Source: Planctomycetota bacterium
GTDB lineage: Bacteria > Planctomycetota > Planctomycetia > Pirellulales > Pirellulaceae
Length of the DNA: 64,000 nucleotides
NCBI GenBank assembly: GCA_029259935.1
Contig: JAJDEH010000408.1
Coordinates: forward strand, 24,369-88,368
Direction: 5' to 3'
Every line of letters starts with the position of its first letter. Position 1 is the stretch's first letter. Shown here in pieces: positions 8,870-49,735 of this stretch. Position numbers and translations under genes: made by a program. Under the pieces are notes generated by a model. That model saw only the letters and a program-made list of their open reading frames with translations. It made no database searches and was not told where the DNA came from.

Positions 8870-9523
8870 GTGACCCCAATTGACAACCAAGACGATCAAG
8901 GATTTACCGACCAACTGACCAAGGCCGCGGCGGGCGATCAGCGCGCGTTGACCGATTTGCTGTCAGTGCATCGGTTGCGGCTGCGAAAGTTGGTCAGCTT
9001 GCGGCTCGACCATCGTCTGCGCGGGCGCGTCGATCCTTCCGATGTCATCCAGGAGGCGTTTCTGGAAGCCAATTCCCGACTGACTTCATACCAACAGAAC
9101 CCGACGATGCCGTTTTTCATTTGGTTGCGGTTTATCACCGTTCAAAAACTGCTTGTGTTTCACCGGCGGCATCTTGGCACCAAAATGCGCGACGCGAGTC
9201 GGGACGTGTCGATTTTCCGGCGCGAAGATTCGGAAGCGAGTTCGGCGGAACTGGCCGAGAGGTTGATCGGCTGCCAGACGTCACCCAGCCAAGCCGTACA
9301 GCGGGCCGAGCGACGCCTTCGGATCGAGCAGGCTTTGGAGGCCATGGCGGCAATCGACCGCGAAGTACTCGTTTTGCGGCACTTCGAGGAACTGACCAAT
9401 ACGGAAACGGCCCAAGTACTGAATGTCAGCCCGACCGCGGCCACCAATCGGTATGCACGCGCGCTCAATCGCCTTAAAGAAATTCTGGTCGAAACGTCCC
9501 GAGGAGTTGAGGATCTGCCATGA
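8870..9523 (+). CDS. ECF-type RNA polymerase sigma factor
   Basis: 217 residues from GTG 8870. The frame extends back to 8615, but that part has no sigma similarity and a 217-residue product is the usual size. Region 2 is PSDVIQEAFLEANSRL preceded by LVSLRLDHRLRGRVD. Region 4 is LEAMAAIDREVLVLRHFEELTNTETAQVLNVSPTAA, written here in two parts: LRHFEELTNTETAQ then LNVSPTAATNRYARAL. This is the planctomycete sigma type paired with Ser/Thr kinases. Its stop overlaps the kinase start (ATGA), so the two are translationally coupled. No anti-sigma factor is adjacent; the kinase may take that regulatory role (inference). Confidence 0.9.
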   Translation: MTPIDNQDDQGFTDQLTKAAAGDQRALTDLLSVHRLRLRKLVSLRLDHRLRGRVDPSDVIQEAFLEANSRLTSYQQNPTMPFFIWLRFITVQKLLVFHRRHLGTKMRDASRDVSIFRREDSEASSAELAERLIGCQTSPSQAVQRAERRLRIEQALEAMAAIDREVLVLRHFEELTNTETAQVLNVSPTAATNRYARALNRLKEILVETSRGVEDLP

Positions 9524-12500
9524 CGCTCGACACTGTAGTCAATCACCCCTTATCCGCCCTGGCGGATTCGTTCGTTCAGAAAATCCGCCAGGGCGAACGG
9601 CTCTCCGTTTCCGAGTATATGGAGCGGTATCCCGAACATGCCGGAGAGATCGAGGACCTGCTAACCACGCTGGTCATGCTTGAGGAAGCCAAAGCCAATT
9701 CATTGGGATCGTTAGTCAACAGCAGCGCGATCCATGAGCACATGCCCACTCAGTTAGGCGATTTTCGCATCATTCGGGTGATCGGACGCGGCGGGATGGG
9801 AGTGGTTTACGAAGCGGAACAGCAGTCGCTGGGGCGTCGCGTCGCGTTGAAGGTGCTGCCAACATCCGCGCATGCGAATCCGTCCGAGCTGGCGCGATTC
9901 CACCGCGAGGCGAAGGCGGCGGCCAGACTGCACCACACGAACATCGTGCCGGTCTATGGTGTCGGTGAAGATCAGGGCGTCCATTATTTTGTCATGCAAT
10001 GCGTACAAGGCGAGTCGTTGGACTGCCTGATCGACGAACTGCACGGGCTTGTGACGGTTTGCAACGGCCACGCCTCGGCAAACAATGAGATTGCGCCGGC
10101 ACCAACGGCCTCTTCAATTCTGGCCAGTAGTTTGCTTTCCGAGACCTTTCCCCCATCCGCGACGCGGCCGAAGGGCGTTGCGGGCGATGGTGACAATTCC
10201 TCGCGGGAAGAGCGGCGACCGGTACCCCAAAAGGCCATGCCCGGCAATCGGCCACACCGTGCCAAATCAAAGCGTATTCATGGATTCCGATTTCCAAAAT
10301 CCTATTGGCGGCGCGTGACCCAAATCGGCATGCAGGCGGCCGAAGCGCTGCAGTATGCCCACGGGCGGGACACCGTCCATCGCGACATCAAACCCTCCAA
10401 CTTGATTTTGGATGAGGATGAGAAGGTTTGGATTACGGACTTCGGCCTTGCCAAGGCCGGTGATGAACACGGCCTAACGTCGACCGGCGATGTTCTGGGG
10501 ACACTTCAATACATGGCCCCCGAGTCCTTTGAAGGCCGGCTCGACGCGCGGAGCGACATCTATTCGCTGGGACTAACACTCTACGAACTGGCCGCATTAG
10601 TTCCGGCGCGGAGCGGGGTCACCCGCAACGAGTTGATTCAACGGGTCCGCGAGGGGTCCGTGCCGCGGCTATCCAAGGTGAATGCGCAGGTTCCCCGCGA
10701 CTTGGAAACGATTATCCACAAAGCGGTCAATCCCGATCCGCGGAAGCGGTATCAGACAGGCGGCGAAATGGCTGACGATCTAAAACGCTTTGACAACGAT
10801 CTGCCTATCCGTGCTCGGCGAACGGGGTTGGCCGAACGAATCGGCCGCTGGTGCCGACGCAATCCACGCGTTTCACTCATATCCGGCAGTGCCGCGTTTA
10901 CCGTCCTGGTGACGATTTGTATCGCCTTCGCCATGATCACCACATCTCGCAATCGGGCCGTTCATCTGGCGTTCAAAGAAGGTTTGGCGCGTCGTGAAAC
11001 GGAATCCGCTTTTAAGCAGGCCGAATTACAACGGCAGGTCGCCGACGTTCAAAGACAGGAAGCCGAAAGATCAGCGAATCGGGCCCGTGCCGTGACCGAA
11101 TTCCTGATTGACATGATCGACACGGCAAGGCCCGAAAAATCGAGAGGCCGCGCGATGACGGTTCGTGAAGTGCTGGATCGCGCGTCGGCAATGGTGGGCG
11201 ACGGGTTCGCCGACGATCCGGAAAAAGAAGCCACGGTTCGCTGGACGATTGCCCGCGCGTATTACAGCCTTGGCCGCTACGAAGAAGCTGAACACCATTG
11301 GACCCGCGCGCTTAAAATTCGCCAACGTGTTCTCGGACCTGAACACTTGGAAACCTTGGGAACCATGAACGACTTGGCGTCCAACTACTATGGCCGTGGC
11401 CAGCCTGCCGCCGGACTGCGGCTGGAAGAGAAAGCTCTGAAAATCCTCCTCCGCGTGCATGGACCGGAACACCCCATGACGCTGACCACCATGGGCAATA
11501 TGGCCTCGAATCTGCATGCCCAAGGGAAGTACTCCCAAGCCCAACAGCTTTTCGAAAGGGCTTTAGGTCTGCAACGTCGCGTCCTGGGCTTGGAGAACGC
11601 TAGCACCATGGCCACCATGTCGAACTTGGCCTTAAATTTGCACGTCCAAGGGAAATTCGTCGCGTCCAGCAAACTCAACCGCAAGACGCTCGAGATGCGT
11701 CAACGATTGCTCGGCAAGGACCATCCCAGCACGCTCGTTTCGATGGGGAATTTGGCGCACGACCTGAATGCGATGCGAAAGTTCGATGAGGCACAAACGC
11801 TTGCCGAACAAGTGTTCCGCGCCCGTTGCCGTATCCTGGGCCCTGAACATCCACACACGCTGGCGGCAATTAACAATCTAGCGGCCATTCTTGACGAACA
11901 GGAAGACGCGACCGACACTCGAAATCTCTACCAAAAAATCATCGATATTTCTTCCCGTGTCTTGGGTTCCGATCACCCGAACACGTTCGTTGTCGTCAGC
12001 AACTATGCCTTCGAGCTGCAGCAACAGGGAAATATTGCGGAAGCCCAGGAGGCTTATCGGCGGGCGCTGGAGAGTGCTCAAAAGACTCTGGGCGCGAATC
12101 ACCCGATATCAATCAAGATCTTGGCTAATCTGGCTGATTCGTATTTCTCGGAAGGCCGCCATGCGGATGCGCAGCAGCTCTATGAAACCGTGTTCGATGT
12201 GGAATCCGTCTCTGATGAAGGGCAAGACCCCTGGCCGCTTGGAATCACCCTTGCCATGGCAAGAGTGTTGATCGCACAAGACAAGCACGCGCAGGCTGCC
12301 GGCCTGATACAGGCTCAATTGGATACCCACGTGGATACTGATCGACGATGGGATTGGAGAGTGGGATTTCTCAAATGCTTGGCGGGACGCTCGTGGGACA
12401 CCGCCGGCCAATCCGCCAAGGCCGAGCCGATGCTGTTGACCGGCTATCAAGTCATGGAATTGGATCCACACGCTTCAAGCAATAGACTTGCTGATGCGCT

Positions 12501-12618
12501 GGCCTGGATCATCGAATATTACGACACCCAGGGAAAGACGGAAGAGGCCGCGCGCTGGCGCGAGAAGCAACTGGCACCAACCGCCAGCGGCCCTTCTATC
12601 TCAGAAGCGAAACCTTGA
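9520..12618 (+). CDS. Transmembrane Ser/Thr protein kinase with TPR sensor domain
   Basis: 1032 residues. A short N-terminal helical region with YMERYPEHAGEIEDLL precedes a Hanks-type kinase: GRGGMGVV at 89-96, Lys111 in VALKVL, HRDIKPSN from 287, DFGLAK from 307 and APES near 333. All catalytic residues are present. A low-complexity insert (about 175-250) splits the lobes near the hinge. A single transmembrane helix lies at about 451-474. The rest is TPR repeats of the kinesin-light-chain type with recurring RVLGPEHxxT units, suitable for protein binding. The start overlaps the sigma factor stop by 4 bases, so sigma and kinase form one signalling unit. Confidence 0.92.
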   Translation: MTLDTVVNHPLSALADSFVQKIRQGERLSVSEYMERYPEHAGEIEDLLTTLVMLEEAKANSLGSLVNSSAIHEHMPTQLGDFRIIRVIGRGGMGVVYEAEQQSLGRRVALKVLPTSAHANPSELARFHREAKAAARLHHTNIVPVYGVGEDQGVHYFVMQCVQGESLDCLIDELHGLVTVCNGHASANNEIAPAPTASSILASSLLSETFPPSATRPKGVAGDGDNSSREERRPVPQKAMPGNRPHRAKSKRIHGFRFPKSYWRRVTQIGMQAAEALQYAHGRDTVHRDIKPSNLILDEDEKVWITDFGLAKAGDEHGLTSTGDVLGTLQYMAPESFEGRLDARSDIYSLGLTLYELAALVPARSGVTRNELIQRVREGSVPRLSKVNAQVPRDLETIIHKAVNPDPRKRYQTGGEMADDLKRFDNDLPIRARRTGLAERIGRWCRRNPRVSLISGSAAFTVLVTICIAFAMITTSRNRAVHLAFKEGLARRETESAFKQAELQRQVADVQRQEAERSANRARAVTEFLIDMIDTARPEKSRGRAMTVREVLDRASAMVGDGFADDPEKEATVRWTIARAYYSLGRYEEAEHHWTRALKIRQRVLGPEHLETLGTMNDLASNYYGRGQPAAGLRLEEKALKILLRVHGPEHPMTLTTMGNMASNLHAQGKYSQAQQLFERALGLQRRVLGLENASTMATMSNLALNLHVQGKFVASSKLNRKTLEMRQRLLGKDHPSTLVSMGNLAHDLNAMRKFDEAQTLAEQVFRARCRILGPEHPHTLAAINNLAAILDEQEDATDTRNLYQKIIDISSRVLGSDHPNTFVVVSNYAFELQQQGNIAEAQEAYRRALESAQKTLGANHPISIKILANLADSYFSEGRHADAQQLYETVFDVESVSDEGQDPWPLGITLAMARVLIAQDKHAQAAGLIQAQLDTHVDTDRRWDWRVGFLKCLAGRSWDTAGQSAKAEPMLLTGYQVMELDPHASSNRLADALAWIIEYYDTQGKTEEAARWREKQLAPTASGPSISEAKP

Positions 12619-21317: not shown

Positions 21318-21669
21318 GTCGTTCTCCCTAATTGAAATAAAGTGTTCGTCCAACTCGTGAGGCTTACTTTGCGTAGGCTCCCCGGGCCGTGATGGCCGTG
21401 TCTCGCCGCGCATTATGCGTACTTGCTCTGTTTCCCAAGAGTGCGCGCTTGGCAAAGAGTGCGGTGCAGGTTGATAAATTGCACGTGGGGTAATTCTATC
21501 GCATTTCCAACGACGTGCAATGAAAAAGAACGACGACTACAGAGAACGGCGACCACTCCGACTGGCGAAAAAGCGGAAGCCTGGCGTGACATGTTCGCTC
21601 GCGGGGCCGTATACTCAATTGTGTGGTGTGTGTGCGGACGCGAAATTAGGCGCGGACGAGCCCAATGCA
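21318..21669. promoter_or_regulatory. Divergent intergenic region
   Basis: 352 bases between the Lys-rich small gene (minus) and the P-loop/pentapeptide gene (plus). The plus frame is open from 21520, but its first 50 residues have no similarity and fall before the likely start. No hairpin or recognisable box is seen. Confidence 0.3.
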
Positions 21670-23535
21670 ATGATCTCCCCTCGGCCTGCTCCGGCCAGAC
21701 CCCGAGTTATCTCTTCCGAAATAAACGAGACGGTCCTTTTAGAGGACTTGGTCGGTTGGTGCATAGAGCAGGGATACCGTGGTGCCATCGAAGTCGTGGG
21801 CGGACCGAGAACTGGTAAGACCTCGGCGCTGTCCCACTTGGCTTCGCTTGCCGTGGCCGACCAACTGTTGCTTCTGGATGACCCCAGTCCGCGCGACGTG
21901 AAACTGAGCGGACCCAAATGCCTGATCGTCTACACCACTCGCCGTCCATTCGCTGATTGCGACTTGAGTTACCAGCTTGCATCTTGGACCGACGACGACT
22001 TGATCGAGTACCTGCTGTCGAGCCATCCCGATCGTTGTGCATCGGTGGCGGCGCGCTTCATGGCCGATGGCAACAAGCACTCGCTCTTGGGCAATCCAGA
22101 GCTTTACACCATGATTGCCGATCAGATGGCCGCCAATGAAGCGGTGCAAGACATCCGGACGGCGGTGCGTCTGGAACTCGCGGATCGAATGGAGGACGAG
22201 CAGACTCGCGAGGACGCTCAGTTTTACGCCGCCGCCGTTTTGCTAGGAGAGCAAGACCTCGCTAATGGGCGAGCTGGCCGGATGTTCGAGCGGGGCGTGA
22301 ACCGAGAGTTGTTTGCCCTTCTCAGCCATCGCTGGGTCCAAGTTCTGCTGAGTGCCGATTGGGTGATCTCGGTTTTGAAGAAGGAGAGTCCCGAACATCC
22401 GTTTCCCAAAAGAGAATTCTCGGGCGAACTGGTGGTGGAAGCGGCGCGGCTTGCCAAGGAAGATCCGACGGCACTCTCTGGGTTGCGCAAGCTGGTTGAG
22501 TGCCGCCGACCAGAATTCGTGCCAATGGCGGCCAGCATGCTGCATCTGGCGGATCCCGAATGGCGTCCTAACCGCGCCCTTTGCTTCTATTTTAGAGGGG
22601 CCCACTTGGCCAATGCCCAATGGCGAGAAATTGATCTAGGACAAACGAACTTGGAACGCGCGGACCTTCGCTACTCGGATCTGCAAGGCGCGAACCTCAA
22701 GCGGTCGCGGTTGGCTAAATCGACTCTTCGAGGAAGCAAACTCGGCAGCGTCCAATTGATCGAAGCGACTGCGCACGAAACCGACTTCAGCATGGCGGAT
22801 TTGACTCGTGCCGACATGACGCGCGGACAATTCGATCAAGCGGACTTTGCCTGGTCGGTGCTGAAGCACGTTTCGGCCGTGGAAGCGAATTTTCACAGTG
22901 CGGATTTCAGCGATGCTTGCCTGCGCTCGGCAATCCTCGCGGGCTGCGACTTTCGCGACGCCACCCTCAACGAAACGGATCTGCAAGACGCCGACCTACG
23001 AGGAGCCAATTTGTCTCGGCAAAACCTGCGTGGCGCAATCCTGCGGGGAGCGAATCTCTCCAACAGTCTGCTCTCACGCTGTGACTTGGAGTTCGTCGAA
23101 CTGCCGAACGCAAACTTCGCCGAGGCGAACCTCACCAACGCTTGGCTCACCGGCAGCATGATGCCTGGCGCGAACTTTCGCAATGCGAAGCTCTGTCACG
23201 CCGGGCTGGCGGACGTCGAGTGGGAGCAAGCTGATTTGCGTGGCGCGGATCTGCGCGGCTGTTCGTTTCATATGGGATCTTCCCGCAGCGGACTGGTCGG
23301 CAGCCCCTATCCGGGACACGGCAGCCGCACCGGTTTTTACACCAACGACTACGACGACCAGTGTTACAAGGCACCGGAAGAAATTCGCCATGCCAATCTT
23401 TGCGGCACGGACTTGCGAGGATCCGTCATCGAGGGAGTGGACTTCTACCTAGTGGACTTGCGAGGGGCAAAGTACGATGCCGGCCAAGCTAAACAATTTC
23501 GCCAATGCGATGCCATTCTCAGCCGCTCGAAGTGA
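21670..23535 (+). CDS. P-loop NTPase fused to pentapeptide-repeat domain
   Basis: 621 residues from ATG 21670. The N-terminal third carries a Walker A motif (GGPRTGKT, residues 44-51) and a short hydrophobic LLLLDD (66-71) that could be Walker B; the ATPase core is small and of a STAND/AAA-like kind. A helical middle follows (about 130-310). From about 315 to the end runs a right-handed pentapeptide-repeat coil with A(D/N)LxxAxL units such as ADLRYSDLQGANLKRS. A break (SFHMGSSRSGL to NDYDDQCY) interrupts it near 540-580. Signalling or effector-like architecture. No partner gene is evident. Confidence 0.75.
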   Translation: MISPRPAPARPRVISSEINETVLLEDLVGWCIEQGYRGAIEVVGGPRTGKTSALSHLASLAVADQLLLLDDPSPRDVKLSGPKCLIVYTTRRPFADCDLSYQLASWTDDDLIEYLLSSHPDRCASVAARFMADGNKHSLLGNPELYTMIADQMAANEAVQDIRTAVRLELADRMEDEQTREDAQFYAAAVLLGEQDLANGRAGRMFERGVNRELFALLSHRWVQVLLSADWVISVLKKESPEHPFPKREFSGELVVEAARLAKEDPTALSGLRKLVECRRPEFVPMAASMLHLADPEWRPNRALCFYFRGAHLANAQWREIDLGQTNLERADLRYSDLQGANLKRSRLAKSTLRGSKLGSVQLIEATAHETDFSMADLTRADMTRGQFDQADFAWSVLKHVSAVEANFHSADFSDACLRSAILAGCDFRDATLNETDLQDADLRGANLSRQNLRGAILRGANLSNSLLSRCDLEFVELPNANFAEANLTNAWLTGSMMPGANFRNAKLCHAGLADVEWEQADLRGADLRGCSFHMGSSRSGLVGSPYPGHGSRTGFYTNDYDDQCYKAPEEIRHANLCGTDLRGSVIEGVDFYLVDLRGAKYDAGQAKQFRQCDAILSRSK

Positions 23536-39924: not shown

Positions 39925-41526
39925 TCAATGATTAAACCTAAACTCCGCCGACGTAATCAACGCCCAAATCATCTGATCGCAGGTTGTGTGCCGGTCATCA
40001 CCTTGGCGACCGAACCAGCCGGTCAGACGAGCCGATTCGTCGTCATTAGGCGACCGGCTAAGAATGGTCCGTACAGCCTGCGTCACTAGCTCGCCCGTGT
40101 CTTCAATCTTTCCAAGTCGTGCCGCCAGATTGTCGCCCTGGGCGGCCACCAGCGCTTGAGACGCCGAGTTATTCGACATGAACAACGCCTCGGCGACACT
40201 ACTATGAAAATTGGCGCGGCGCGGGTCCAGGGAATTGATCAGTTCGGCGGCCCGCTCTTCGATCGTCAAATACTGCTCGATTCTTTGCAGGCCCGCGACG
40301 CCGGAATATCGCTCGACGCGCGACTGAATCTTGCCGGGTTCGCTCAGTGTTCCGTTTCCCGTGGCCAAGACCAGCGAGAAGGCAAGCTGCCGCTGCGAAA
40401 GTGGCCGCAAACTGGCGACCGCGAACAACGAATTCTCGGGGATTGGTGCGTCATGTTCCCAGCGGCTGCTAAGTTGATAGGCGCGCGTGCCGACGATGGC
40501 TTTGACCAGCCGTCGCAAGTCGTAGCCGCCGCCGGCAAAGTCGTCGGCCAGCCATTCCAGCAATCCGGGCACCGCCGATTCGTTGCCCGAGTGCATTTGA
40601 TCGACCGGCTCGACCAATCCGCGACCGAAAAAGTAGGCCCACATTCGATTGACCATCGCGCGGCTGAAGAAAGTCTTTTCGTCGAGTGCCGCTTTGACCA
40701 ATTGCTCGCGGCGGCTGATTCGAACTTTCTTCGCTCCTTCTTGATCCAGCGCGGCAAGGTCGACCACGTCGCCCGACAGGAACATCATCTGGGCGGTCTT
40801 TTCTTTTCCGTCCGCGCCGACAAAGGTGACCTCGCCTTCGTTTTTTTCGCCGACCTTGCCTTTGCCGCCGGTCGTGCGATTGAAGAAGGCGGCCATGCCG
40901 TAGAAATGCTCCTGCCGCCAATCGTCGACCAGGGGATGGTCGTGACATTTTGCACAGGAAATATCGACGCCGAAGAAAAATCGCGCCGCGTCGACCGCCA
41001 GCACGTCCGTGGTTTTGGCCCGCTTGTCCAAGAACCGGTTCGCCGGTTTCGTTGCCTCGGTATCCCACGGACCCAACATCAGTTCTCGGAACACCAAATC
41101 CCACGGTTTGCCGTCTCGAATGCCGCGCCGCATGTAGTCGACGAAATCGGCGTTTCCCGCATGCCGAGATTGAATCATCTGGTCGAGTACATTGCCAAAG
41201 TGCAACGGAAACTCAGGGCCATCCATCAGTCGCTGAACAATCTTCTCTCGTTTTACGTCCGAGGCGGCTAGCAGCCGGTCAAGTTCGGCGGCCGTGGGAA
41301 TACGCCCGGTCAGATCCAAAGTCGCGCGCCGCAAAAACGTCGCGTCATCGGCTGCTTGGGCAGGTTGAACTTGGTTGGCGCTCCAGTGGCTCTCCAAAAA
41401 ACCATCGATCTTGGCAGCCACCTGAGCGGATGAAGTCGCGGTCTGGCCGGCAAGAACAGAATTCGCGGACAGGGCGAAGGCGATCATCAATCGGCAGATG
41501 AAACTTAGCCGTTTTTGCCCTTTCAT
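39925..41526 (-). CDS. DUF1549/DUF1553 protein (second copy)
   Basis: 533 residues from ATG 41526, preceded by GGAGGA; the frame opens earlier at 41697 but that part overlaps the WD40 gene. Signal peptide: MKGQKRLSFICRLMIAFALS. DUF1549 is shown by DATFLRRATLDLTGRIPTAA and by CAKCHDHPLVDD, which holds a CxxCH haem-type motif. DUF1553 has AMVNRMWAYFFGRGLVEPVD and ends ALITSAEFRFNH. It is a secreted protein of unknown activity and the last gene of a four-gene operon; its start is 14 bases after the WD40 stop. Confidence 0.9.
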   Translation of the reverse strand: MKGQKRLSFICRLMIAFALSANSVLAGQTATSSAQVAAKIDGFLESHWSANQVQPAQAADDATFLRRATLDLTGRIPTAAELDRLLAASDVKREKIVQRLMDGPEFPLHFGNVLDQMIQSRHAGNADFVDYMRRGIRDGKPWDLVFRELMLGPWDTEATKPANRFLDKRAKTTDVLAVDAARFFFGVDISCAKCHDHPLVDDWRQEHFYGMAAFFNRTTGGKGKVGEKNEGEVTFVGADGKEKTAQMMFLSGDVVDLAALDQEGAKKVRISRREQLVKAALDEKTFFSRAMVNRMWAYFFGRGLVEPVDQMHSGNESAVPGLLEWLADDFAGGGYDLRRLVKAIVGTRAYQLSSRWEHDAPIPENSLFAVASLRPLSQRQLAFSLVLATGNGTLSEPGKIQSRVERYSGVAGLQRIEQYLTIEERAAELINSLDPRRANFHSSVAEALFMSNNSASQALVAAQGDNLAARLGKIEDTGELVTQAVRTILSRSPNDDESARLTGWFGRQGDDRHTTCDQMIWALITSAEFRFNH

Positions 41527-41540
41527 GTTGCATCCTCCGG

Positions 41541-42731
41541 CTAGGCCAACTGCCATACGTGGACCAGTCCCGCGATGTCGGCCGCCGCCACGGTCTTCTG
41601 ATCGGGAGAAACGGCAATGCCGTGTAGCCAGTCCTTGAATTGTCCGCCGCGGCTTTTGCCGAGCGCGGCGATTTCCTTGCCGTCTTCCACTTGGCAAATG
41701 CGGACCGACGTGTCGCGACCGCTGGACAACACATATTTGCCGTCGGCGGAAAACTTCACGTCGCAGGCACCGTAGCGGTGGCCCGAAATGGTGCGCACCA
41801 GTTTGCCCGAGTCAGTATCGAATAGATGCACTTTGCCGGTATCGGTTTCGCCGCCCTGGCCAACCGCCACCAGTTTGCCATCGGGCGAAAAATCGGCCGC
41901 GATCAGACCACGCTTGACGAACTTTCGCCAGGCTTGCGCCGAGCCGTACGAGTTTGCTTTGGCATCGAGTTTTGGAAGATGAATCTTAAGGAGATCCAGC
42001 TTCTGCGTGCCATCGGCGACGTTCCACAGCTTGAGCGCCGCGGCGGGAATGTCGAAGTCGTCTCGTTTGTAACGAAACTCCGAAACCAGGGCGGATTCAC
42101 CGTCGGGCGACAACGCGGCTGCCACGACCCAGTTCCACGGATGTCCGCTCCAGCGCGCGATTTCCTTGCGGCCTTTCAGGTCCCAAGCAATCACCAACGA
42201 GGTTACATCGCCGCTGATGAGCCGACTTTCGTCGCGGCTGAGCGCTAGGCTGCTGACCCAATCGCGATGGCCTTCCAGGATCTGTGCGGCCTCGACGGTT
42301 TCCACGGAAGCACCAGGCGCGGCGAGCAGCTTTTCCTTTCCTTCCTTCGATTTGCCACGAGCATTTCGCTCGCGGGCTTTTGCGTCGAGCACGACTTCGG
42401 CGCTGCCGGTGGCTGGGGCCGTGGTGTCCCACAAACGAATCGTGCGATCGAGGCTGGCAGAGATCAGCGTTTGGCCGTCGGCGGTTGCTCGCAGATGGGA
42501 GATGCCGTTGGTGTGACCGTCGAGCCGACGGACCGGCGCGAAATCGGGCGGTGGTGGATCCTTGGCGTTCTTGTCGACTTCCGGGGGTGATTCAGGAAGC
42601 TGCCAGATGTAGATTTGTCCGGCACGGTTACCGGCGGCCAACTGGCGATTGTTGCCGAGGAAAGCAATCGAGGTGGGCCAGTCGCCTTCGAAGGACAATT
42701 GCCAGCGGTGAGTTGGTTTGTTGATTTGCAT
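41541..42731 (-). CDS. WD40-repeat beta-propeller protein
   Basis: 396 residues with about seven WD40-type blades. Repeating motifs include GHTNGISHLRATADGQTLIS with DRTIRLWD, GHRDWVSSLALSRDESRLIS, and GHRYGACDVKFSADGKYVLS with RDTSVRICQ. No signal peptide is seen at the N-terminus (MQINKPTHRWQLSFEG), so it may be cytoplasmic unlike its secreted neighbours. It lies between the DUF1501 gene and the second DUF1553 gene, a placement common in planctomycetes. Scaffold role inferred. Confidence 0.88.
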   Translation of the reverse strand: MQINKPTHRWQLSFEGDWPTSIAFLGNNRQLAAGNRAGQIYIWQLPESPPEVDKNAKDPPPPDFAPVRRLDGHTNGISHLRATADGQTLISASLDRTIRLWDTTAPATGSAEVVLDAKARERNARGKSKEGKEKLLAAPGASVETVEAAQILEGHRDWVSSLALSRDESRLISGDVTSLVIAWDLKGRKEIARWSGHPWNWVVAAALSPDGESALVSEFRYKRDDFDIPAAALKLWNVADGTQKLDLLKIHLPKLDAKANSYGSAQAWRKFVKRGLIAADFSPDGKLVAVGQGGETDTGKVHLFDTDSGKLVRTISGHRYGACDVKFSADGKYVLSSGRDTSVRICQVEDGKEIAALGKSRGGQFKDWLHGIAVSPDQKTVAAADIAGLVHVWQLA

Positions 42732-42743
42732 GAGCTTGTGAGT

Positions 42744-42895
42744 TCCCTCTCCATTGCAAGGAGGGGTTAGGGGAGGTTCTTCTTTCTTTGTCCTTCAGCA
42801 TTCATCATTCCGTGTTCGATATTCGATATTCACTTGGAGCTGTTCGCGATGTGGCGGACGACCACCCCTAGCTCCCCCTTGGCAAGGGGGAGAAC
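42744..42895. repeat. Palindromic MITE-like element 2
   Basis: Left arm 42744-42780 (CCCTCTCCATTGCAAGGAGG then GGTTAGGGGAGG) mirrors the right arm 42861-42895 (ACCACCCCTAGCTCCCCCTT then GGCAAGGGGG). The right arm abuts the stop of the DUF1501 gene. Same family as element 1 and the solo arm at 44202. The core contains a TTCGATATTCGATATTCAC segment. Confidence 0.65.
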
Positions 42896-44182
42896 TCAGA
42901 CCAAAACATCCTGCACGACATTGGAACCAAACGGAGCGATAGGAATGGGTCGCACACCCGTGAAGTGTTCCGTTTCCGGGTCCATTCCCAACGCCTGATA
43001 AATCGTGGCGAAGAAGTCGCCCTCGGTCACGGGATTATCCTTGACATCCACGCCATCTTCGTCCGACTCGCCGTAGACCAATCCGCCTTTCACGCCGCAG
43101 CCGGCCAGCGCCGTACTCCACGAACGGACATAATGGTCGCGGCCGCTACGGTTGTTGATCCGAGGCGTGCGGCCGATCTCGCCCATCCAAACGATCAAGG
43201 TATGTTCCAAAAGGCCTCGCTGCTCGAGGTCGGTCATCAGGCCAACCCAGGCGTGCTCCATGGGCGGCACCAGGCCGCGATGAGCTGAAAAATTATCAGC
43301 ATGCGAATCGTAACTGCTCTGACCGACTTCGACGAACGGCACGCCCTGCTCGACCAGCTTGCGAGCCATCATACAGCGGCGTCCAAACGCGGTGTCGCCA
43401 TACAAATCGCTATGCTTGCCCCATTCGTCGTCGATATTGAAAACGGCGCGAACATTTTGCAGCCGCCGAGCCGCTTCGTAAGCTTCGCGGTGCATACGTG
43501 TCGTTTCCGCTTGATAATCACGGGCGTACACATCTTCGACAAAATTGCGCAACTCGTTGCGGCGCGATTCCAGTTCCGGCTTCATGTTCGAGGACGAAAA
43601 GGTCGGCAGCTTGCCATCGGGGCTGAGCGAGAACGGTTGGTACTTGGGTCCCAAGAACCCCGCACCGCTATTTCCATGTGAAAAGATCTTGATGAAGTTG
43701 GGCAGGTCGGAACCTTCACGGCCCAAGTACTTGGCAACGACCGCGCCAACTTCGGGAAAGCGAATATTGGCGGCGGTCGAATAACCGGTGTGCATCAAGT
43801 GGATGCCGCCCGGGTGATCGATTTGCGATGTGCGCATCGAGCGGATCACGGCCAGCTTGTCCATGTTCTGCGAGATTTTCGGCATCAGTTCACAGACTTG
43901 CGCCCCCGGCAAGTTGGTCGCGATCGGTCGGAACAGGCCGCCGGTGGGCCGCCCCGGTTTCATGTCAAACGTCTCAAACTGACTGGCCCCGCCGTTCATC
44001 CACAACAGGATGCAGCGCTTTTGTTGCTTCTTGACTTCGTCGGCCGCCACCTGCGAGTGGAACAGACTGCCCCAGTTCATGACCGCTCCACCCGCGGCAG
44101 TGGCGACCGTGCCTTTCAACAAAGCTCGTCGAGAAAGATGTTCAAAGCGGGGACATTGATGGTTCATGATTTGCTTTTTCAT
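42896..44182 (-). CDS. DUF1501 family protein with Tat-type signal
   Basis: 428 residues. SRRALLKGTVATAAGGAVMN is the twin-arginine signal. The core has ILLWMNGGASQFETFDMKPG, GGIHLMHTGYSTAANI, PFVEVGQSSYDSHADNF, LIVWMGEIGRTPRINNRSGR and FFATIYQALGMD. It is a paralogue of the DUF1501 gene at 7195. Here it follows its usual DUF1549/1553 partner by 55 bases. Exported folded; enzymatic activity unproven though the fold is that of alkaline phosphatase/sulfatase relatives. Confidence 0.92.
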   Translation of the reverse strand: MKKQIMNHQCPRFEHLSRRALLKGTVATAAGGAVMNWGSLFHSQVAADEVKKQQKRCILLWMNGGASQFETFDMKPGRPTGGLFRPIATNLPGAQVCELMPKISQNMDKLAVIRSMRTSQIDHPGGIHLMHTGYSTAANIRFPEVGAVVAKYLGREGSDLPNFIKIFSHGNSGAGFLGPKYQPFSLSPDGKLPTFSSSNMKPELESRRNELRNFVEDVYARDYQAETTRMHREAYEAARRLQNVRAVFNIDDEWGKHSDLYGDTAFGRRCMMARKLVEQGVPFVEVGQSSYDSHADNFSAHRGLVPPMEHAWVGLMTDLEQRGLLEHTLIVWMGEIGRTPRINNRSGRDHYVRSWSTALAGCGVKGGLVYGESDEDGVDVKDNPVTEGDFFATIYQALGMDPETEHFTGVRPIPIAPFGSNVVQDVLV

Positions 44183-44201
44183 ATTGTTGCTCTCGTCTTT
44201 C

Positions 44202-44237
44202 GACCCCCTCTAACTCCCCCTTGGCAAGGGGGAGAAC
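44202..44237. repeat. Solo palindromic arm of the MITE-like family
   Basis: CTAACTCCCCCTTGGCAAGG followed by GGGAGAAC directly after the stop codon of the minus-strand DUF1553 gene. CTCCCCCT and AGGGGGAG form an 8-bp stem with a 5-base loop. It could serve as a transcription attenuator between the two genes. Confidence 0.65.
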
Positions 44238-45869
44238 CTAGTGGTTGAATCGAAATTCGCTACATGTCATTAAGACCCAAATTGCCTCGCCTAGGCGCGT
44301 GCGTGGATCATTGTCGGCGGTGAGGAAAGCCACAAACCGCTCCCGTTCTTCCGGCTTCGGCCGCCGACTCAACATTGACAGATAAAGCCGATCGACCCTT
44401 TCTTCCCAGGGGTCTTCCGAATTCAACAACGAATCGTATAAGCCGCCTTTAGCCGACGTCAACAGTTTGCCGATGCCGCCATTGTTCAAATAAAGATGCT
44501 CGTGAAGTCCGCCTTGAAAATCGCCCACGCCGTTGCTGGGTGAACCGAAGAACCGCATCAAATAACCGGATCCCAACGGCGTGTAACGGTCGCTCCGCGG
44601 CTTCTTTCCCGATGCCTTTTCGATTCCATCGTAACCAACCGCGACCTTCCAGGCGTCCAGCAATTCTTCCGCCGAGAGCGGCCGCGTGCGCGCCCGTTCA
44701 AACCAACGCGGCATCGGGTCCGCCACCTGGCCCGTGCCCGCAAGTTGATAAGTGCGCGAGTTGACTAGCTCGCGAATGTACCACTTCAAGCTGAACTTTT
44801 GTTCCACCATCGCGGCGGCCAGCGCGTCGAGCAGTTCGGGATGACTGGGAGTGTTCGACTTGCTCATGTTGTCCACCGGATGAATCAGTCCCCGGCCCAT
44901 GAACTGCGCCCAAACGCGATTCGCCACCGCGCGGGCAAAGTACGGATTGTCGGGACGGGTGATCCAGTCAGCCAGTTGGTCCTTGCGAGAGAATCCCGGC
45001 TTGGGCGGGACCTTGCCGCTGGGGAAGTTACGGACTTCCTTGAAGTCCGCCGGCAACTCGGGTTCGGCCAGCGGATCGCCGTGCAGAAACTTGGGCTTCA
45101 CCGGCTCGCCCTTCTTGCCGACTTCCTGCTCGGTAACTGGACCGGTGAACAACACATCGCCTTTGTTCTTTTCGCCGATGGCGTACATCGCCAGTTTTTC
45201 CTTCTTGCCAACCTCGACGACCTGCAATCGAGCAAAGAACGCGGCCATGCCGTAAAAGTCCAACTGGGTCCACGATTCAAACGGATGGTCGTGACAGCGG
45301 GCGCATTGCAGTTGCACGCCCAGGAATTTCTGCGTGACCGCTTCGGTCGCGTCTTCGGGCCGGCTTTTGTATTGCACGAAGAACATCGGCGCGCCTTGTT
45401 CGACGGTGTTCCCTTCGGCCAGCAAGATCGCCTTGGCCCACTGGTCGTAGGGCGTGTTGTTGGCGAACTGGTCCGCCAACCAGGTTTGAAAGCCGGACCG
45501 CTTGTCCGTCCCAAAGCCGGGCGGGTTGCGGCCGAACAGCACCTGATCCCACACTTCGGCTTGGTGCTGGGCGAAACGCGGATCGTCGAGCAATCGGTCG
45601 ATGAGCTTCGTGCGTTTGTCTGCTCCCGCGTCGTCCAGGAAGCTGGCTGCTTCCTGGTGCGTAGGTATCGCGCCCAGCAGATCGAGATAGACCCGACGTA
45701 AAAACTCCGCATCCGTCGACGCGTCGGCCGGCTTGATCTTGTTCGCCTTCCACGCAGCGTCGACTTGCCGATCAACCATGTCGCGCAAGCCTTCCTCGCC
45801 GTGGGTAACTAGCGGCGAAAGGCACACTGCGACTAGGAACGTGAGGAAGGATCTTCGCGGTGGGCTCAT
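44238..45869 (-). CDS. DUF1549/DUF1553 protein (first copy)
   Basis: 543 residues. Signal peptide MSPPRRSFLTFLVAVCLSPL. DUF1549: ADASTDAEFLRRVYLDLLGA, then VQLQCARCHDHPFESWTQLD with a CxxCH motif. DUF1553: RAVANRVWAQFMGRGLIHPV, then NTPSHPELLDALAAAMVEQK, ending LMTCSEFRFNH. It is the first gene of the minus-strand operon and is divergent from the GntR-type regulator. It is not a close duplicate of the copy at 39925; the two differ in insert length. Confidence 0.92.
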   Translation of the reverse strand: MSPPRRSFLTFLVAVCLSPLVTHGEEGLRDMVDRQVDAAWKANKIKPADASTDAEFLRRVYLDLLGAIPTHQEAASFLDDAGADKRTKLIDRLLDDPRFAQHQAEVWDQVLFGRNPPGFGTDKRSGFQTWLADQFANNTPYDQWAKAILLAEGNTVEQGAPMFFVQYKSRPEDATEAVTQKFLGVQLQCARCHDHPFESWTQLDFYGMAAFFARLQVVEVGKKEKLAMYAIGEKNKGDVLFTGPVTEQEVGKKGEPVKPKFLHGDPLAEPELPADFKEVRNFPSGKVPPKPGFSRKDQLADWITRPDNPYFARAVANRVWAQFMGRGLIHPVDNMSKSNTPSHPELLDALAAAMVEQKFSLKWYIRELVNSRTYQLAGTGQVADPMPRWFERARTRPLSAEELLDAWKVAVGYDGIEKASGKKPRSDRYTPLGSGYLMRFFGSPSNGVGDFQGGLHEHLYLNNGGIGKLLTSAKGGLYDSLLNSEDPWEERVDRLYLSMLSRRPKPEERERFVAFLTADNDPRTRLGEAIWVLMTCSEFRFNH

Positions 45870-46033
45870 TGCATTTCGACTGACAAATAAGGGTAGGAGG
45901 GTCGCTGGGGATGGGGCATGTTTGCCACGAAATTGCCAGCCACCATGATAGCACGGTTCCGAGGGCTTCCGAACGACATTACACTATTGCAAAGTGGTTG
46001 TCTTTGTGTCTTTGGATGAGCCAGATTTGGCAA
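45870..46033. promoter_or_regulatory. Divergent promoter region, DUF1553 operon and GntR-type regulator
   Basis: 164 bases between the two genes. The arrangement suggests that the regulator controls the operon. I see no clear palindromic operator. Confidence 0.4.
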
Positions 46034-47197
46034 ATGGCAAAGAAACGAAAAAAGTCCGCGCGAGTACGCCCAAGTCCAACCCGTCCGTCCGTGGCGGGTC
46101 CGGCCGGATTGGATCGTATCGACCGGCCGCTAACGTTGATCGCGCAGGTCGAACAGACGCTGCGCCGCGCGGTGGCCGATGGCGTGTTCCCCGGCGATCG
46201 GTTGCCGACCACCGTCGAACTGGCCGATCAACTGGGCGTGAGCCGCGAGACCGTGCGGCTGGCCATGGAATCGATGCAGCGCGACGGCCTGCTGGTCAAG
46301 CATCGCCGGCGAGGCACGTTCGTCAATCCGCCGAATGTGCCCACGAATCTCGTGCCGACATCGACCATCATCGGCTACCTGCAAGCCGACTACAGTACCG
46401 AGCAAGGGGAGTCTGAGCTCATCACCCGCCCCACGAGCAGCAACATGTTCGACGGGGCGCTGGTCGAGGCGGGCCAGGCGGGCTTTCAGATCATCGCGCG
46501 TAGCGCCCGCATCGTTCACTTGCGAAAATCGTTCGAGGAACTGTGCAACCAAGCCCGCTTGCGAGGAGTGATCTTTGCCTCAATCGGCGAAGACAAGTTG
46601 CTGCGGCGGCTGGGCGGGTTGAACATGCCGGCCGTGTTGTTGGACCACGATCTGCACCTACCGAAGATCAGCTCGATTCGGCCCGATTCGTTCGGCCGCG
46701 CGAAACTGGCCGTGCGGCACCTGGCCGCCTTGGGCCATCGTCGGATCGCCCTCGCGCAGTGGCACCAACAGGACTTGAACCCCTGGCATCTGCGCGGCTA
46801 TCGCGAAGGAATGCGGGAAGCGGGGCTGCGCTGCCGCCGGGCGTGGGAGATGTTCGTGCGGATCAACCGCCTTGGAGCGAACGAGGTCGTTGATGCGATT
46901 CTCGAATCCTCGCCACCACCGACGGCCGTCATCTGCTTCAGCAACCCACTGGCGAACTTTGTCATCGACGCCGCTTTCGAGCGCGGACTGCGCGTGCCTG
47001 AAGATCTAAGCGTCGTGGGGGGCGGTGGCGGCGACGTGGCAGGCCTGACATGTATGCAACTCGACTGGTATGACTTGGGACGACAAGCGATGCAACTGCT
47101 GCTCAAAGCCATCCACGCGGGCGAGCATCACAAGCCGGAACACAAAGTCGTCCCCTACGATTGGCACGAGGGAAGGACAGCGATTCAGATTAAGTAG
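46034..47197 (+). CDS. GntR-type HTH regulator with LacI-like sugar-binding domain
   Basis: 387 residues from ATG 46034, the start of a basic MAKKRKKSARVRPS segment; the frame opens at 45911. The winged helix (about 35-100) reads VADGVFPGDRLPTTVELADQ, LGVSRETVRLAMESMQRDGL and HRRRGTFV. The remainder is a periplasmic-binding-like fold as in LacI/AraR: FDGALVEAGQAGFQIIARSA, LRGVIFASIGEDKLL, HLAALGHRRIALAQ, LRVPEDLSVVGGGG. This combination is that of AraR-like regulators sensing sugars. It is divergent from the DUF1553/DUF1501 operon, its likely target. Confidence 0.88.
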   Translation: MAKKRKKSARVRPSPTRPSVAGPAGLDRIDRPLTLIAQVEQTLRRAVADGVFPGDRLPTTVELADQLGVSRETVRLAMESMQRDGLLVKHRRRGTFVNPPNVPTNLVPTSTIIGYLQADYSTEQGESELITRPTSSNMFDGALVEAGQAGFQIIARSARIVHLRKSFEELCNQARLRGVIFASIGEDKLLRRLGGLNMPAVLLDHDLHLPKISSIRPDSFGRAKLAVRHLAALGHRRIALAQWHQQDLNPWHLRGYREGMREAGLRCRRAWEMFVRINRLGANEVVDAILESSPPPTAVICFSNPLANFVIDAAFERGLRVPEDLSVVGGGGGDVAGLTCMQLDWYDLGRQAMQLLLKAIHAGEHHKPEHKVVPYDWHEGRTAIQIK

Positions 47198-47278: not shown

Positions 47279-49735
47279 TCAGTTGCGAATCGCTTCACCG
47301 GGAATCACCTCAAGGGGCGTGGCTTCACCTTCCTTGACTAGGTAGTGTCGATTTCCCGGTAGCTCTGTCAATTCTTGTTCGGTTCCGGAGGGCCAGCGGA
47401 TCGTCAACCGGTCCACGGTTTCCGCTTCCCCCAGCCCCAAATGGACACAGGCCGGCGACTGTCCCAGGAAGTTGATGATCGGATAAAGCTCGCGCGTGAT
47501 GCGGCGACCGTCCGTTTCACAAATTAGCTTTGCGCCGATACCAAACCGATTGCTTTTCTCGCCGCGCAGCGAAATTTGCAGCCAATTGGCTTGCGGGAAC
47601 TTATTCCGAAAAACAAGCAGCGCTCCGCCTCCAGTTTGCCGAACGAACAGCTCGGGCATTCCGTCGCCGGTCACATCCCAACCGACCACCGTCCGCCCGT
47701 CGCCCGTGCTGTCGGCACCACTGATGTAAGAAATGTCGTGAAACGTCCGCGAACCGGAATTGAGAAAGATGCCGTTGCGTTCATAGGCGCTCAAGTTCTC
47801 GCCGCTGTTCATGAACTCCCACGGGTTCGAGATCCAGAATTCGCCCGACTCTTCATCGATGTCGCGTAGCGCGGGCACTTTGCACTGTTGATCAAACGGC
47901 TGTGACACGACAGCCAACCAGACGCAACGTCAGCCATCGGGCTTGTCCGTCGACACACTCTGATAGCCGACTGGCGCGTACATATCGACCAGTCCATCGC
48001 AATTGAGATCCATGTAACCGGTCCCATAGGCCCAGCCGACATCCGAGACGCCCGCCGCTTTGCCAATCCGCTCGAATCGTCCGTCTCCCAAGTTTCGATA
48101 CAATTCGTTGCCAGACACAAAGTCGCGCAACTGCGCGTCAACTTCGGGCGGATAGAGTTTTGGATCGAGGTTACCCACGACCCGTTCGCCCGCCTTCGAA
48201 TACATGTTGGCAACATAAGGATCACCAAAACCATCGTTGTCGATATCCGCCACGGTAATGCCCATCGAAAAGCCGCCGTAGATGTCGGGCAGTTCACCGG
48301 ATTTGAACGTGCCGTCGCCCTGATTGAGCAAGTAGTCGTTCATGCCGAACTCGCAGGACGTCATCAGATCGGGCCAGTCATCCCCATTGGCGTCGAACCA
48401 GATGCCGGCGAAGGCGGAATGTCCCAGGCCCCGCGTACCACTCTTCTCGGTTACGTCTTCGAATTGCCAGTCACCCAGATTACGCCACAACCGATTGCGA
48501 TCGACGCTGTTCTCGCCGATCCACTTTACCTTTCCCTCGGATTCGCCGATCCCCACGGCCATCAAATCCAGCAGGCCGTCACGGTCGTAATCAGCGACGG
48601 CGTATCCGGAGGCACTCTCTAGTTGAAGATTGGTTTCAATCTCCGGCGCAAGCTGCTCGAATCGCTCTCCCTTGTCGTTTCGGAACACATAGGAACCGAG
48701 AATCAAGTCCTCAAAGCCGTCGTTGTCCAGATCGGCGAACGCGGCGACCAGCACGTCCAACACATTCGCGGGCAGTCCGGCCTCCTCGGTTACATCGACA
48801 AAGCGTCCCTCGGCTTCACCCCGATAAAGGCGCGGGCCGTTGATGTCGGTCAGCAACACGTCCATTCTGCCGTCTTGGTTGTAGTCGGCCATGTAGAGCC
48901 CGCCGGTCATGAAGGGCAGTTCCTTCTTGCCGGCCGCGACGGTCTTCCAATTGTCGGTCAGGTGGTCGGCATCGATGCCGGTTTCGGCGGTCATGTCGAC
49001 CATCAAGGGCTCTTGGCTCGCGGAGTACTTGGCCTTGTACGGCTTGCACTCCAAGAACCAGTTGCGTTGGTCGGGCGTTTCGTCCGTGATCTTCGCGATG
49101 CGGCAGTGGAACTTGATAACGTGTTGGGCAACCGAACCGTCCGCGGTCTTGCCGGCCAGGATGAATTTGAAAGACCCCCGCCATGAACCTTCAAGATCGC
49201 CCCGCGTTTCGGGACTCATCAGCATGACCTTGAATTTGGCCGACTCCAATTCCGCCAGCTCATCTCGCAGCGCCAGCAACTGAGCAACAAAGCTCTCGCG
49301 GTCGCACTCAAGGGGCGCGTCATGTCCATCGCTCCACGTCCGTAGCGTGGCGAAGGGATAGGTCGCCGGAGTGCCCCCGTCGTTATCGAACAGGCTGCCG
49401 GAAAAATCTTCGGCGAAGAATGCCGTCAGTTCTTCGCGGTTCTTATCTTTCAGCGCCTGAGCAACCTTCGGAAAGGCGAGGTCGCCGAGGACGAAGCCGC
49501 CCAGATGTTCGACGTCCTGCAGATACTTGGCTTGCTCAGTAGAGAGTGCCAACTCCGGCTCGTCCGATTCTGGCGCTCCACTCGATTTGTCCCCCGAGCG
49601 AAGATTGCATCCGCCGGCCATGCCCAACGTCAGCACTCCGACGAGCGCGATGGTGGCCAAATATCGATCAGCAACTATCGACCAAGTGGGACCAATCATG
49701 ATAGTGCGACGCGGGTGGCGTGGTTGTTGAGACAT
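47279..49735 (-). CDS. CRTAC1-like lipoprotein with FG-GAP repeats and ASPIC/UnbV domain; in-frame TGA
   Basis: 818 residues if TGA 602 is read through. From ATG 49735 (AAGGAG upstream) comes a signal with lipobox GMAGGC. A helical/NTF2-like part follows (about 50-230), then FG-GAP-type repeats with Ca2+-binding DxNxDG motifs: ADYNQDGRMDVLLTD, ADLDNDGFEDLILGS, ADYDRDGLLDLMAVG, ADIDNDGFGDPYVAN, MDLNCDGLVDMYAPV. TGA at 47932-47930 interrupts after DKPDG. In the same frame the protein continues RCVWLAVVSQ through GDVTGDGM-like WDVTGDGMPELFV and the UnbV/ASPIC domain LTIRWPSGTEQELTELPGNR. A nonsense mutation or sequencing error is the alternative to selenocysteine. Confidence 0.75.
47898..47932 (-). 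promoter_or_regulatory. Candidate SECIS-like hairpin at an in-frame TGA
   Basis: On the minus strand TGA (47932-47930) is followed after 14 bases by GGCTGT (47915-47910), a CGTGTC loop and ACAGCC (47903-47898): a perfect 6-bp stem and 6-base loop. The loop starts 20 bases after the TGA and has G as its second base, as bacterial SECIS elements do. GTTG (47928-47925) and CAAC (47890-47887) can form a lower stem. By-eye folding only. Confidence 0.45.

Follow-up and report, generated by a model that had tools for sequence, protein, structure and literature searches.

The stretch of DNA analysed here (64,000 nucleotides of contig JAJDEH010000408.1 from a Planctomycetota bacterium, referred to as the window) carries on its minus strand a gene for a CRTAC1/UnbV-type protein, whose reading frame is interrupted by a single in-frame TGA. 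The initial annotation of the window had put this gene forward as a candidate selenoprotein gene. The gene start was taken as the ATG at 49735, a start codon that is not proven. The features of the gene, all on the minus strand, are:

47279 to 49735, minus strand: whole gene, 818 residues with a predicted selenocysteine (Sec, U) at residue 602; its own stop codon is the TGA at 47281-47279
47930 to 47932, minus strand: in-frame TGA, codon 602, the predicted selenocysteine codon, conserved at this site in homologues
47924 to 47926, minus strand: TGC, Cys604 (U+2), a Cys column common to clade A, the group of the window's protein
47898 to 47915, minus strand: hairpin resembling a bacterial selenocysteine insertion sequence (bSECIS), arms 47915-47910 and 47903-47898, loop 47909-47904
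47324 to 49012, minus strand: FG-GAP propeller (residues 242-804 of the model), the part that matches the structure of murine CRTAC1
47342 to 47542, minus strand: UnbV_ASPIC domain behind the TGA, residues 732-798 (Pfam, 1.8e-16)
49607 to 49609, minus strand: Cys43 of a lipobox-like AGGC, a possible lipoprotein site found with a loose regular expression

Re-reading of the frame confirmed that codon 602 is the TGA at 47932-47930, that it is the one in-frame interruption and that it lies in the context DGURCVW. The number of codons behind it had been given as 212, a figure that corresponds to a mechanically called open reading frame (ORF) with a TTG start; there are actually 216 sense codons. 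The reported UnbV/ASPIC similarity of this part was borne out by Pfam, which places FG-GAP repeats before the TGA (124.1 bits, cut-off 26.9) and UnbV_ASPIC after it (60.2 bits, cut-off 23.4). The structure model of the window's protein has the CRTAC1 fold, and a predicted helix (602-610) starts with residue 602. At the N-terminus a hydrophobic helix (18-40 in the model) precedes the AGGC at Cys43; of the 44 clade A rows, only 10 fit the loose lipobox pattern. The Pfam scan of the window's protein yielded no redoxin domain, there is no CxxC downstream of codon 602, and no NCBIfam model was matched. A general reassignment of TGA was rejected, since the codon is a normal stop in the window, where it terminates 10 of the 27 long ORFs picked from the ORF list as well as this gene itself.

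The in-frame TGA is conserved far beyond the window. From a protein search the best 120 of 5106 homologues were taken, of which the window's own truncated record was excluded. Among the remaining 119, 117 end at ...DG, directly before the TGA (the final TGA of P0001 was written as Cys, without consequence), and two run to full length, with Asp (P0009) or Ser (P0022) at the site. A single-protein query of genome contigs found nothing, while an alignment query gave matches. When 397 genomes from a single planctomycete class were searched in six frames (E<=1e-100), 34 of them gave 46 matches; a TGA lies inside every one, accompanied in one match by a TAA and in another by a further TGA. A sample of 392 Planctomycetota genomes, overlapping partly with the class sample (E<=1e-40, two candidates per genome scored, manual count), gave matches in 81 genomes. 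Of these at least 131 matches, 117 had a TGA inside, 14 had no stop and none had only TAA or TAG; at least one TGA match was present in 79 of the 392 genomes. For the matches of this sample the position of the TGA was verified only for loci read as DNA.

Wherever an interrupted family site was read as DNA, its stop proved to be TGA (94 of 94). Most of these loci had been chosen because a TGA appeared in their search row; the class, many-paralogue and phylum searches gave no row with TAA or TAG alone. These sites remained from 100 distinct interrupted frames after six had been dropped as unrelated by context (four TGA: L017 twice, L067 and L111; two TAG: L014 and L050). They comprise 48 sites of clade A, 40 of clade B, 5 of clade C and L129, which contains a run of N and was excluded from all alignments. 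Some genomes hold many copies: G398, G399, G403 and G407 have 14, 13, 7 and 7 TGA matches, respectively (loci including L003, L009, L021 and L053), two of those in G407 being identical over 120 nt around the site. The genome with 14 is a verrucomicrobial metagenome-assembled genome (MAG). In the Verrucomicrobiota samples, only G399 itself matched among 288 genomes, a result that understates the spread because at most two or three candidates per genome were scored in the rows shown, at strict thresholds. A sequencing error or a nonsense mutation, which the initial annotation had left open, was rejected, as a single event of this kind cannot place an identical TGA in many species (117/119 homologues; 94/94 sites).

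Furthermore, the frame continues to be selected behind the TGA. In nine comparisons of the window's gene with clade A relatives, the ratio of the proportions of nonsynonymous and synonymous differences (pN/pS) was 0.35-0.51 after the TGA and 0.36-0.54 before it, with synonymous sites near saturation. For the close pairs, the ratio of the corresponding substitution rates (dN/dS) behind the TGA was 0.05-0.16 in six of seven, the seventh giving no value. Judged by these comparisons, the frame behind the TGA is that of a protein under purifying selection, and this part is constrained as strongly as the part before.

Behind the codon lies the hairpin GGCUGU-CGUGUC-ACAGCC, and its initial description, with 20 nt from the TGA to the loop and a G at loop position 2, proved correct. 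The published bSECIS model specifies a loop of 3-9 nt, an upper stem of 4-16 bp, a G at loop position 1 or 2, a spacing of 16-37 nt and a minimum free energy <= -7.5. The window's hairpin falls within these limits, having a loop of 6 nt, a stem of 6 bp (7 if a G-U pair is counted), its G at the second loop position, a spacing of 20 and -15.2 kcal/mol over a 48-nt stretch. This geometry is uncommon: of the 1816 TGA triplets that the window contains on its two strands, 30 are followed by a Watson-Crick stem of at least 6 bp with the spacing of a bSECIS and a G at loop position 1 or 2. The additional lower stem GUUG/CAAC that had been suggested is present in the window's own fold. As a conserved element it was rejected: 61.9% of the cells of this helix are paired, and only 10 and 12 of 48 rows form the two outer pairs.

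In clade A (48 sequences) 97.9% of the stem cells are paired and four cells are changed on both sides; in clade B (40 sequences) 96.7% are paired versus 90.3% after shuffling, with 11 cells changed on both sides versus 1.5 in shuffles. The covariation score exceeds 500 of 500 shuffles in both clades, and in clade B also every slid version of the alignment, the shuffles taking no account of relatedness. Synonymous codons are strongly frozen in clade A (0 of 20000 resamples). In 261 kb, a clade A covariance model gave 57-68 bits to 13 sites and no more than 14.4 to anything else, which speaks for specificity only because the 13 sites are in or overlap the training set. As read from these alignments, the hairpin, with its compensatory changes, is under selection.

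The genes for selenocysteine insertion were assessed in the 34 genomes with close homologues (carriers) and, for comparison, in the first 20 non-carriers listed. Over cut-off, SelB was present in 28 of 34 carriers, SelA in 31 and SelD in 32, each versus 10 of 20 non-carriers; all three were found in 27 carriers versus 9 non-carriers. At least one of them was found in every carrier versus 11 of the 20 others (Fisher p 3e-5, with relatedness and genome completeness uncorrected). A tRNA-Sec was detected at E<=1e-12 in 27 of 34 carriers; it is common in the class anyway, since 250 of the 397 genomes pass the gathering score. SelA was over cut-off also in G398, G399, G403 and G407, which are rich in clade B genes with a TGA. 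The SelD frame, too, contains a TGA in nine of the 34 carriers (G001, G079, G250, G263, G269, G343, G353, G357 and G374; likewise in G007, G020 and G021), and because of this one in-frame TGA SelD itself is probably a selenoprotein there. As a side observation, tRNA-Sec, selD and selA lie within about 9-16 kb of the clade A gene on contig C9 of G342, and a TGA-containing selD within 9 kb of that on contig C155 of G079.

The interrupted proteins differ in their cysteines. Clade A proteins have about 800 residues and the motif PDGU[RNST]C, the residues across the site being conserved as PDG-U-x-C-x-W; apart from the U site and U+2 (44/44 each), no position carries Cys in at least half of the 44 rows that exceed 700 residues. 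The full-length rows of clade B mostly have 950-1400 residues and the motif DLUSFFWRQV or variants of it. In all proteins scanned with Pfam, five of clade B and one of clade C, an AhpC-TSA domain follows the Sec propeller, accompanied by TPRs in three of the clade B ones; in L159 the AhpC-TSA match is below cut-off. Clade C consists of five mixed sequences, one of them (L016) from an acidobacteriote. Rows with Cys at U+2 lack a downstream CxxC in 51 of 51 cases, while a downstream CxxC is present in 40 of the 42 rows without this Cys, including L013 with an atypical one; the two exceptions have just 240 and 137 residues behind U.

Relatives with a sense codon carry S, A, G, E, D, N or R at the site. 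In 126 redoxin-TPR sense forms, which count as few events because they are close relatives, the site is S in 101, A in 19, G in 5 and a gap in one. At the corresponding place in the redoxin, CxxC is missing from all 126: each has lost the first Cys, and 114 retain the second. Among the 13 planctomycete loci free of a stop, the site could be aligned in 12 (E 5, A 3, R 2, D 1, N 1), and CxxC is absent from the redoxin site in all nine stop-free loci with a redoxin region, L206 having one elsewhere. More distant sense-codon relatives often show a gap in place of the Sec stretch. A Cys in the site column of a remote BLAST alignment (P0174) was not trusted as a genuine Cys form, given 24% identity, a gap right after the site and absence of the motif. 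In a quick tree of 63 rows, from which the incomplete L003 and L053 were omitted, Sec and CxxC each change three times, with one change forced by supported branches. A sign test for coupling of the two was powerless, and it used slightly different patterns for CxxC, C..C for Sec rows and WC..C for sense rows. The coupling of Sec and CxxC is suggestive and not proven.

Taken together, the conserved TGA, the selected frame, the covarying hairpin and the Sec genes of the carriers support the proposed selenoprotein, and UGA 602 is almost certainly a site of selenocysteine insertion. Decoding would follow the ordinary bacterial route with SelA, SelB, SelD, tRNA-Sec and a bSECIS directly behind the codon, giving one 818-residue protein that joins a CRTAC1-type beta-propeller to a C-terminal ASPIC/UnbV part. 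A redox role for Sec602 is probable, and this redox centre would lie probably outside the cytoplasm if the protein is, as we infer, exported. Oxidised Sec602 may well form a selenenylsulfide with Cys604; in relatives that lack the +2 Cys, the part of Cys604 could fall to the CxxC of a fused TlpA/ResA-like redoxin domain. As a whole, a Sec-bearing CRTAC1 propeller of 818 residues with a redox Sec602 is the best explanation of the locus, and a likely one.

Two alternatives concern the decoding. If the TGA were a true stop, the gene would encode a 601-residue propeller, followed by a decaying remnant or a separately started second protein. Gene callers do end there, TGA serves as an ordinary stop for other ORFs of the window, and a TTG start follows shortly behind it. 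Such a stop is nevertheless very improbable in view of the equal constraint on both sides, the TGA at every site read, the PDG-U-x-C-x-W residues conserved across the codon and the full-length relatives with sense codons. Read-through by a suppressor or near-cognate tRNA, aided by the hairpin and inserting Trp, Arg or Cys, is no more credible. A hairpin 3' of a stop codon can promote read-through, the inserted residue cannot be told from the sequence, and 7 of the 34 carriers lack one or more of SelA, SelB and SelD over cut-off. Against it stand the bSECIS geometry, the presence of at least one Sec gene in every class-search carrier with carriers exceeding non-carriers, and sense-codon relatives with neither Trp nor Cys at the site. 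A third alternative accepts Sec and makes it a metal ligand or structural residue. This is unlikely, and a redox role is favoured because the +2 Cys and the fused CxxC alternate and because redoxin-bearing sense forms lack CxxC.

Several results weigh against a redox selenoprotein. Besides the incomplete gene sets just mentioned, the Sec-gene counts come from genomes of relatives and not from that of the window's species. The folding energy of the window's hairpin is ordinary (z -0.22 over 56 nt, z -1.10 over 48 nt). Two slid controls, in which far fewer cells are paired, beat clade A in covariation score. In number of pair types 95 of 500 shuffles equal or surpass clade A; for clade B 156 of 500 shuffles do so and one slide is higher, and codon freezing in clade B is not significant (1359 of 20000 resamples). 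The Sec-CxxC coupling rests on at most three tree changes, one on supported branches. Finally, homologues had been expected to show Cys or TGA at residue 602. The TGA was found, but no Cys form occurs among relatives that keep the surrounding motif, which is unusual for a redox Sec; this counts against the interpretation and is outweighed by the conserved TGA.

No described Sec was found for CRTAC1 (murine, PDB 9etn) or UnbV/ASPIC (PF07593), many of whose sense relatives are gapped at the Sec stretch. The literature search revealed no Sec-containing CRTAC1, FG-GAP or UnbV protein, and one or more papers beyond reach may name the family. The initial annotation knew of no such member either, in agreement with the table of 119 families in the 2026 catalogue (PMC13188914), from which, as far as this table goes, we conclude the family to be missing. 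Some selenoproteins of UxC/UGC type in Table 1 of the catalogue, namely thioredoxin-like Sec.2, DUF1573 and the SO_0444 family transporter, likewise have Cys at Sec+2; by the domain names given there they are other families, set apart by description. TlpA/ResA-like redoxins (AhpC-TSA PF00578; ResA 1st9/2f9s) correspond to the domain behind the Sec propeller in clade B, where most rows show W-C-x-x-C; this domain is absent from the window's protein, and the NCBIfam matches listed for clade B, nearly all to the TPR/redoxin parts, are all below curated cut-offs.

If the interpretation is true, 117 of the best 119 database homologues (of 5106) are front parts of selenoproteins, and selenium use in planctomycetes, a few Verrucomicrobia and Acidobacteriota is far larger than annotated. 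A beta-propeller would then join a set whose characterised members, according to the catalogue (PMC13188914), mostly share a thioredoxin-like fold. We lean towards a hidden large superfamily, with Sec propellers in about a fifth of the Planctomycetota species sampled and as many as 14 copies in a verrucomicrobial MAG. It would form an extracytoplasmic selenium redox system in which Sec is regenerated by the +2 Cys or a fused redoxin-TPR part, is not swapped for Cys, and is lost together with the redoxin cysteines. This raises the testable questions of which target the Sec-bearing propeller reduces and why its Sec is not swapped for Cys.

In the neighbourhood of 12 clade A loci compared, TPRs were encoded near the clade A gene in five, adjoining it in L175, L179 and L182 and 2-6 kb off in L183 and L177, where the Pfam scan of neighbours covered L175, L182 and L183; TPRs are also fused within some clade B proteins. 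No TPR gene was found among the scanned neighbours of the window's gene. Further shared neighbours are DUF1559, DUF1501 and PSCyt, which we take to be common planctomycete genes. In the window, PSCyt2/PSD1, DUF1501 and WD40 genes lie beside the candidate selenoprotein gene (39925-45869, minus strand), adjoined by a GntR/LacI-like regulator (45911-47197). Elsewhere the window encodes, on the plus strand, a protein kinase with TPRs (9520-12618) and a protein with many pentapeptide repeats (21520-23535).
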